Positions 23,082 through 27,197 of a DNA stretch of 64,000 nt are shown in pieces. Position numbers and translations under genes: made by a program. The notes beneath the pieces are model-generated. The model was not told the DNA's origin and did no database searches. It worked only from the letters and a program-made list of their open reading frames with translations. Numbering within the stretch: position 1 is the stretch's first letter; every line of letters starts with the position of its first letter. Origin of the DNA: Natronomonas aquatica (GTDB taxonomy: Archaea > Halobacteriota > Halobacteria > Halobacteriales > Haloarculaceae); assembly GCF_024449025.1 (NCBI RefSeq), contig NZ_JAHLKM010000002.1:248001-312000 (forward strand), read 5' to 3'.

Positions 23082-24299
23082 ATGAAGGTCGCAATCATCG
23101 GGATCGGACGGGCCGGTGGGAACGTCCTCGATCGGCTTCTGGAGTATGAAAAAGGACAGGAAGCGGATTTCATTCGCCACGGTCTGGCTGTAAACACCGA
23201 TTCGACGGAGCTACGTAGACTGTCGACAGTCCCCGAGACAGAGCAGTTACTCCTCGGTGAGTCGGTGTTCGAAGGGATGGGGACGTTACACAACCCGGAA
23301 GCCGGACGGACGTACTTTCGGGACAGCATCGATGAGATCCTTGCGGAGACCGACAAAGTCTCGATCGGCCAAATCGATGCATTCCTCGTCATCGCCGGGC
23401 TCGGCGGCGGCACCGGGGGTGGGGGAGCACCCGTGGTCGCTTCCGCGTTGCGAGATCAGTCTGTCCGTCCGGTCTACGGCCTCGGTATCCTGCCCGGAAA
23501 TGACGAAGGGGAACGCATGCGGGTGAACGCCGGTAGAACCTTGCATCCGTTCGTCGACAGCACCGATTCGGCGTTTCTCTACGACAACGACACCGCCCAA
23601 CCGGGCGACGGGGAGGATCCCCCCAGTGCCCAGACATCAGTTCTCAAGCTAAATAACGAAATCACCACCCGGTTTGGGACCTTGTTGTCAGCGGACGAAG
23701 GAGACGTACAAACCGATCCGAGCAGAGGGACCGATGTTGCGGTATCCGACCTGATCGAAACGCTCGGCGGAGGTAACAAACCGGATGCGGCCAAGAGAAC
23801 CGAACCGAACGACGGGGGTGGGATTACGGCGCTGGGGTATGCCGCGGAACCGCCCGTTGTAGATATCGCCCGGAGTAGTGGCGTGCTCGGTAGCGTTCTT
23901 CCGTGGCGAGTGTCCGTCTCCCAAGCGACGGATCGGATAGCCACACAGATCCGAGATCTGGTTCGTACCACCGTACGGGAAGGGATGACGCCCCCGTGTT
24001 CACTTTCGAGTGCCGAACGGGGGTTGCTGATCGTCGCTGGACCACCGGACTCGTTACCCCGCCAGGGTATTCAGGACGCCCGTATGTGGCTCGAGTCCGA
24101 GCTTGAGACGGAGACGGTGCGGGTTGGGGTAGCGAGGCGTCAGAACGCCGAGAAGATCTCGACGCTACTCGTCGCTTCCGGGGTTACGGAATCCGAGCGG
24201 ATCGATGAGCTACGAGCTATCTCCTCCGATATCGAGTACTCCGACGACGTATCCGATTTTCCGAGTCTGAAAGGGATCACGGACCGCGAAGAGGGCTGA
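23082..24299 (+). CDS. cetZ: CetZ-family tubulin-like protein (divergent)
   Basis: The 405-residue protein is a tubulin/FtsZ superfamily GTPase of the haloarchaeal CetZ group. The N-terminus MKVAIIGIGRAGGNVLDRLLEYE and the G-box AGLGGGTGGGGAP (residues 105-117) bind GTP; PVYGLGILPGNDEGER and LLIVAGPPDSLPRQGIQDAR are further family blocks. CetZ proteins polymerise and control cell shape and motility. This copy has looser codon use than its neighbours, a variant G-box (GGGG after GT) and lacks the long acidic tail of CetZ1, so it is probably an accessory paralog. The membrane protein gene follows 81 bp later. Confidence 0.88.
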   Translation: MKVAIIGIGRAGGNVLDRLLEYEKGQEADFIRHGLAVNTDSTELRRLSTVPETEQLLLGESVFEGMGTLHNPEAGRTYFRDSIDEILAETDKVSIGQIDAFLVIAGLGGGTGGGGAPVVASALRDQSVRPVYGLGILPGNDEGERMRVNAGRTLHPFVDSTDSAFLYDNDTAQPGDGEDPPSAQTSVLKLNNEITTRFGTLLSADEGDVQTDPSRGTDVAVSDLIETLGGGNKPDAAKRTEPNDGGGITALGYAAEPPVVDIARSSGVLGSVLPWRVSVSQATDRIATQIRDLVRTTVREGMTPPCSLSSAERGLLIVAGPPDSLPRQGIQDARMWLESELETETVRVGVARRQNAEKISTLLVASGVTESERIDELRAISSDIEYSDDVSDFPSLKGITDREEG

Positions 24300-24343
24300 T
24301 ACTGACCCCACCGATCGCGGACAACAACGCCGGGGAGGGGATG

Positions 24344-24363
24344 GATTTAATAATTTATCATAT
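24344..24363 (+). promoter_or_regulatory. AT-rich promoter-like element before the TRAM membrane gene
   Basis: ATTTAATAATTTATCATATG lies 18-37 bp before the ATG at 24381 and is much richer in AT than its surroundings. It could supply a TATA box, so the membrane gene may have its own promoter besides any read-through from cetZ. Confidence 0.45.
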
Positions 24364-24380
24364 GTTCGATCACCTAATGG

Positions 24381-25466
24381 ATGACCCGACACGCGAAATC
24401 GAACGACTGGCAGGCCGGCGATTACGTCAGCGGTGAGATTAATCGCCTGGATGACGAAGGCCGCGGGGTGATCGGAACCGGTTCGAAGGGGGTTCGCGTT
24501 ACCGGCGACGTGGAGGCCGGGAAATCGGTTATTGCGGAGATTACGTCGAGTGACGACGAGTACGTACTCGCCGAAGAAATCCCGTATTTCTCGGATACCG
24601 ACGCCACGCTTTGGGTACAACAGACGGCAGACACCGACTCGACGATGGGGTGGTATCCGAAATACCCGCTCAAGAACTTGCCTCTATTGTTCCACTGCAA
24701 TCTCTTCGAGGAAGCAACACTGGAAACTGCACCCCGGGTGAGCAAGGAAGAACCGCCGGTATTGTGGCGAAAACTACATTCCGTCGTCGCAACCACGGCT
24801 GGTCTTGGAATATTGCTGGTGATACTCTATCTCATCGTGACGCTACTCAGAGGATCAGTCATGTCTCAGTGGGGGGCGGCGGCCGGGCAATCACCAGTGT
24901 TCATCCTACTGTTTTTTATCGGACTCGGGCTCACGTTTGTCGGGTGGGTGGTCTTCGAATACCTGATCTGGCTCTCCGGAGCGATTCTCGGCGGCGCGAT
25001 GGGTATCACGGTCGGTGGGGCGCTGTCGCTTCGACTCGGCCTGAGTGGCGGGCAAGGGCTATTATTGAGTTGGCTGATGATGGGCGGCGGCGCTAGCCTC
25101 GTCGGTGGGCTGTTCGTGTTGTTACACCGTTTCGCGATCATGCTCGGTGCGTTCTTTGCAGTCGCATCGCCGCTCGCGTTTTTGTTGACCGGCGGAGCGA
25201 TCGCCAGCGGTGAGGTCGCTTTGACATCGGTTTGGCTCATACTGCCCGTCCTCGTTGCGATCGGTTTCGGAATCGTCGCCGCGATTCTCACCTGGGTGGT
25301 GTACAAACTCGCCATAATACTAGTGACGAGTTTCTTCGGCGCGGCATATCTGGTCTATCTCCCGCTTCTCGCACAGACCGGGGAGATCGGGTTCAGCTTC
25401 CAGTTCGTAATCGTCTTCCTCGCCGGGGCGGGCGTACAAGCGTTCTTCGGCTTTGCCGGTGATTGA
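24381..25466 (+). CDS. TRAM-like domain fused to a multi-pass membrane domain
   Basis: The 361-residue protein starts with a soluble segment (about 10-70) whose pattern GDYVSGEINRLDDEGRG, VRVTGDVEAGKSVIAEI and YVLAEEI fits the TRAM nucleic-acid-binding fold. From about residue 115 there are seven or eight hydrophobic, glycine-rich segments (for example LSGAILGGAMGITVGGALSL) reminiscent of TMEM198/DUF4203 membrane domains. I know of no characterised protein with this combination; both domain calls are by eye. It follows cetZ on the same strand, suggesting a membrane partner for that cytoskeletal protein. Confidence 0.72.
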   Translation: MTRHAKSNDWQAGDYVSGEINRLDDEGRGVIGTGSKGVRVTGDVEAGKSVIAEITSSDDEYVLAEEIPYFSDTDATLWVQQTADTDSTMGWYPKYPLKNLPLLFHCNLFEEATLETAPRVSKEEPPVLWRKLHSVVATTAGLGILLVILYLIVTLLRGSVMSQWGAAAGQSPVFILLFFIGLGLTFVGWVVFEYLIWLSGAILGGAMGITVGGALSLRLGLSGGQGLLLSWLMMGGGASLVGGLFVLLHRFAIMLGAFFAVASPLAFLLTGGAIASGEVALTSVWLILPVLVAIGFGIVAAILTWVVYKLAIILVTSFFGAAYLVYLPLLAQTGEIGFSFQFVIVFLAGAGVQAFFGFAGD

Positions 25467-26633: not shown

Positions 26634-27197
26634 ATGACCGAAGTTGATAACGAAGCTATCCAAGAAGTGATCGATAAATTCGCTATCCATGAGCTGATGT
26701 CGGAATACGAAATGATGTATGATCATTTCCCTCTTCCACACGGAGGGGGGACAGGAGATTTCAACGCTTTTGACGAACTCGATAACATAGATATAGAAGA
26801 TCACGTTGACGATTTTATGGAACTTTTCACCGACGATTGTGTTGTCGATTACGGCATACACGGACGGATCGAGGGAAAAAAAGCTCTACGTGATTTCCAG
26901 CTCGCCTACTTCAAAAAAGAGACCGAATTCGTCGATTGGTTCCACCTCGTTGCAAACCCATGGATCGAGGTTCACGACAACGAGGCCCGGGGAAAATGGA
27001 ACTTTTTCGGTCCCTACATCATGGAAGGAGCCGGCGCTTGTTTCCACTTCTCGACGTATGACAACACATTCGTTAAAGACGATGGGGAATGGAAAATTGA
27101 AAATCTCAAATTGACTCTGAAATACATGTCCCCCTACGATGGAGGATGGGAAGACGTTCCGATAGACGACGTGTTCCTGTCCGGAGACTCGATGTAG
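26634..27197 (+). CDS. NTF2/SnoaL-like domain protein, probably horizontally acquired
   Basis: The 187-residue protein has the NTF2-like cone-fold pattern: a first helix IDKFAIHELMSEYEMMYDH, FMELFTDDCVVDYGIHGRIEGKKALRDF in the middle, and HLVANPWIEV then WKIENLKLTLKYMSPYDGGW at the end. The family includes dehydratases, isomerases and cyclases, and the His/Asp residues in the pocket suggest an enzyme. Its base composition and codon use (many A/T third positions) are unlike the neighbours. No linked pathway genes are present, so no substrate is proposed. Confidence 0.8.
   Translation: MTEVDNEAIQEVIDKFAIHELMSEYEMMYDHFPLPHGGGTGDFNAFDELDNIDIEDHVDDFMELFTDDCVVDYGIHGRIEGKKALRDFQLAYFKKETEFVDWFHLVANPWIEVHDNEARGKWNFFGPYIMEGAGACFHFSTYDNTFVKDDGEWKIENLKLTLKYMSPYDGGWEDVPIDDVFLSGDSM

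Follow-up and report, generated by a model that had tools for sequence, protein, structure and literature searches.

Two neighbouring genes of the halophilic archaeon Natronomonas aquatica raise the question of whether a CetZ-family protein and a multi-pass membrane protein carrying an apparent TRAM domain form a membrane-anchored cytoskeletal module, as an earlier note on this DNA had proposed, or are independent genes lying side by side. Both are found in a 64,000-nucleotide stretch of the genome, here called the window.

The locus and its composition

The two genes lie on the same strand about 80 bp apart, and the open reading frame coordinates agree with the earlier note on their positions, shared strand and adjacency; both frames look like genuine protein-coding genes. 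The features on which the argument relies are the following.

23082..24299, + strand: divergent CetZ-family tubulin-like GTPase, 405 aa
23727..23750, + strand: altered T7 loop of this protein, residues 216-223
23769..23813, + strand: insertion of about 15 residues after T7, residues 230-244
24346..24353, + strand: TATA-like box of archaeal type, TTTAATAA, lying 27 bases ahead of the ATG of the membrane gene
24381..25466, + strand: TRAM-like membrane protein, 361 aa
24411..24584, + strand: TRAM-like (OB-like) N-terminal domain, residues about 11-68
24759..24851, + strand: extra N-terminal transmembrane helix, residues 127-157, predicted from hydropathy
24891..25460, + strand: TM7S3/TM198-like 7TM core, residues 171-360

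The looser composition described previously was recovered, with a third-codon GC of 0.67 for the CetZ gene and 0.69 for the membrane gene, against 0.80-0.89 in most neighbours. The low value is not shared by the HAD and GatD neighbours, and a SnoaL-like gene at 26634 is the only neighbouring gene below the pair. This SnoaL-like gene (26634-27194; GC 0.46 overall and 0.54 at third positions) is itself flanked by genes of normal GC. The CetZ and membrane genes may have been acquired together: their common odd composition fits joint acquisition, which is no demonstration of joint function.

A divergent CetZ with an altered T7 loop

The 405-aa protein matches the Pfam families CetZ_C (1.6e-30) and Tubulin (3.3e-27), both far above the Pfam cut-offs, and PDB entry 4b46 at 2.8e-64 in a PDB sequence search, confirming the CetZ identity assigned in the earlier note. 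A tubulin-family match is present in all sampled genomes of the order, and the closest relatives of the window protein are about 44% identical to it. Its position in the tree is unsure because its end branch is long (3.12 changes per column) and stems from an unresolved fork with the genus-level CetZs; it groups with neither the CetZ1 nor the CetZ2 supported subfamily. Halobacteria were already known to hold divergent CetZs outside clear subgroups (PMC9856176). The protein resembles Haloferax volcanii CetZ1 and CetZ2 (PDB 4B46/4B45; PMC9856176) in whole-length homology, the GGGTG loop and the CetZ_C domain, and differs from them in belonging to neither close group, in its T7 loop (VVDxSE replaced by VAVSD) and in its 15-residue insert. 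It retains 96 of the 152 positions that are near-invariant among 31 best-hit CetZs, the other 56 being changed, and its nucleotide loop reads GGGTGGG instead of GGGTGSG, a single Ser to Gly change. The domain matches and the alignment show that this unusually fast-evolving relative of tubulin retains both the CetZ fold and the GGGTG nucleotide loop. Elsewhere, genome G051 carries tandem divergent CetZs, one of them long-branched (locus L122, 3079-4296 and 4317-5516), and in genome G207 a CetZ is split between two frames (locus L127, 2941-4256), perhaps as a broken copy.

The acidic residues of the T7 loop drive GTP hydrolysis in FtsZ and CetZ. The FtsZ loop is NxDxxD, as compared with GTDVAVSD in the window protein. 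A first set of best-hit CetZs, to which divergent plasmid CetZs were added, keeps D-x-S-[ED] in every other member, the plasmid copies included, mostly as ESVVD[AS]SE. The window protein lacks this motif and has VAVSD instead, the first aspartate being missing and the second acidic residue being kept as Asp; the insertion that follows is absent from the other CetZs compared. In an equal-length alignment the first Asp becomes Ala, whereas a shifted alignment would change the spacing instead, so the first catalytic T7 aspartate appears to be lost, depending on the alignment. With this motif missing, normal GTPase activity is not supported; homology to CetZ, as judged from the protein sequence, stands on the domains. 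If the first aspartate is lost, this fast-evolving paralogue would probably bind GTP and hydrolyse it poorly, and it could act as a stabilising or regulatory subunit together with the other CetZs of the genome. The reverse arrangement was observed in two plasmid CetZs (L137, 1501-2607; L138, 1453-2538), in which the nucleotide loops are degenerate (GGNTSGG and GGATGSV) and T7 is intact.

Architecture of the membrane protein

Hydropathy and helix prediction give the 361-aa protein eight transmembrane helices, that is, one helix plus a 7TM core, preceded by a soluble N-terminal portion. When its sequence was searched against Pfam, NCBIfam and PDB, nothing significant was returned. An assignment to DUF7241 was rejected, the match being weak (E 0.004) and no member being found among 40 relatives or in control genomes. 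Against a profile of a haloarchaeal 7TM family, residues 171-360 score 23.5 bits, the best of 2000 shuffles reaching 6.6, and by this profile they are a divergent copy of that family. Sixteen of the 21 stand-alone members of the family match TM7S3_TM198 (PF13886), the best at 2.8e-06, and only through them is the window protein linked to PF13886. It shares the 7TM core and invariant Gly, Ala and Pro residues with TM7S3/TM198 proteins (human TMEM198 and TM7SF3) and with the stand-alone haloarchaeal relatives, one of which, a paralogue of the core, is encoded in its own genome. It differs from all of these in adding the N-terminal helix and the N-domain; the long loop that precedes their final helix is missing from it, as is the C-terminal tail. 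Near stand-alone 7TM genes of two genomes (L044, L053), a short zinc-ribbon-like two-helix protein (MPSCRNCG...) was also seen.

The N-domain was compared with haloarchaeal TRAM domains by hhalign, using as query an alignment of three N-domains, those of the window protein and of its two full-length relatives (G427 and G463). The match has a probability of 92.9% and covers the whole domain in 57 ungapped columns; the maximum among 300 column-shuffled controls was 4.8%. Single-sequence TRAM scores are weak (6.6 bits), although only 4 of 2000 shuffles reach the score of the window protein. Structure predictions of the membrane protein (pTM 0.31-0.34) gave low-confidence models with scattered strands, too poor for a fold search. 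Archaeal TRAM proteins have been described as RNA chaperones (PMC5572242). The N-domain has in common with them a gapless pattern of about 57 residues, in which a G-x-G turn occurs as well as a G-x-x-V that precedes a late strand, and departs from them in being joined to a membrane protein and in lying below Pfam TRAM detection. We use the wording "TRAM-like" only, because the domain scores under the cut-off of Pfam TRAM (PF01938), which gave no match. This failure, together with weak PDB matches to S1 (0.075) and to the Cdc48 N-domain (0.1) and the need for profile-profile comparison, leaves room for a related small barrel of S1/OB or Cdc48-N/double-psi type, binding protein rather than RNA; given how far the ungapped, full-length TRAM match exceeds the best shuffled control, we consider such a barrel unlikely.

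Two further Haloarculaceae genomes encode full-length relatives: G463 and G427, the contig of the latter matching Haloarculaceae archaeon H-GB1-1. No additional one was found in the class (391 genomes) or in the family (146 genomes); searches of plasmids, phages and viral contigs with the membrane protein were empty. Two other candidates were set aside: a match in G199 to residues 54-119, in a frame judged spurious, and a partial, weak match in G177. Between the window protein and its G463 relative, conservation is higher in the N-domain, with 36/69 identical residues (52%), than in the membrane part, with 86/228 (38%); in the comparison with G427 the two parts are about equally conserved. Recurrence in three genera argues for a real architecture, and the earlier proposal that a multi-pass membrane protein carries a TRAM-like domain is supported. 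At the level of sequence, the profile matches and helix predictions show a TRAM-like domain, an extra helix and a TM7S3/TM198-like 7TM core within one predicted protein. To our knowledge, based on a limited literature search, the fusion of a TRAM-like domain to a TM7S3/TM198-type membrane core has not been described. The 7TM core and extra helix would hold the predicted barrel at the membrane, probably on the cytoplasmic side because Arg-Lys directly precedes the first helix, and the most likely work of the protein would be to tether RNA, or a partner protein, at the membrane's inner face.

Neighbours or partners

The earlier note had staked its module on conserved co-occurrence of the two genes, and the result goes largely against it, the genes not being neighbours in G427 and G463. 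The membrane gene adjoins a PAS histidine kinase gene in the former and lies between hel308 and cheC in the latter, with no CetZ nearby by tblastn in the approximately 20 kb read in each. Conversely, it was found beside no other CetZ locus examined, and stand-alone 7TM genes are far from CetZ genes in the genomes listed with matches to both. The comparison comprises the three known members, so the absence of CetZ is that of two genomes; as far as tested, the pair is specific to the window genome. The TATA-like box before the membrane gene, one of 4 matches in the 64 kb against 0.4 expected, suggests a promoter of its own, separate from the CetZ gene. Because the pairing is found in the window genome only, the evidence does not support a cytoskeletal module formed by the two proteins, and beyond adjacency and composition nothing supports a functional pairing.

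A module restricted to this lineage, in which the membrane protein anchors the divergent CetZ and has co-evolved with it, would explain the fast evolution of the latter. The common strand, the short interval, the low third-codon GC unlike that of the HAD and GatD genes and the extreme CetZ branch would agree with it, but the two other carriers without an adjoining CetZ, the other CetZ loci without the membrane gene and the separate TATA-like box make it distinctly unlikely. Alternatively, both genes could be recent, lightly constrained passengers of little function on a low-GC stretch, with the CetZ decaying. Their composition, the altered T7 loop, insertion and long end branch of the CetZ, and the split copy in G207 are compatible with decay; however, the frames remain open over 361-405 codons, nearly two-thirds of the near-invariant CetZ positions are retained and three genera share the architecture of the membrane protein, so that this explanation appears improbable. 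We favour, with a probability of roughly 0.6, two independent neighbouring genes, possibly co-acquired, one encoding a CetZ with impaired hydrolysis and the other a membrane-tethered TRAM/OB-like barrel.

It is very improbable that the CetZ forms a T7-impaired tubulin-family filament whose membrane anchor is the TMEM198-like 7TM protein, through an RNA-binding barrel of TRAM type; if true, such an archaeal filament would connect a tubulin-like polymer with both RNA and the membrane. The TRAM-like and TM7S3/TM198-type architecture could bring the binding of RNA or protein to the membrane in archaea. If the first T7 aspartate is truly gone while the GTP-binding loop is kept, the CetZ would be a tubulin-like subunit that naturally hydrolyses GTP slowly, and such a protein would help to test the role of hydrolysis in CetZ filaments.
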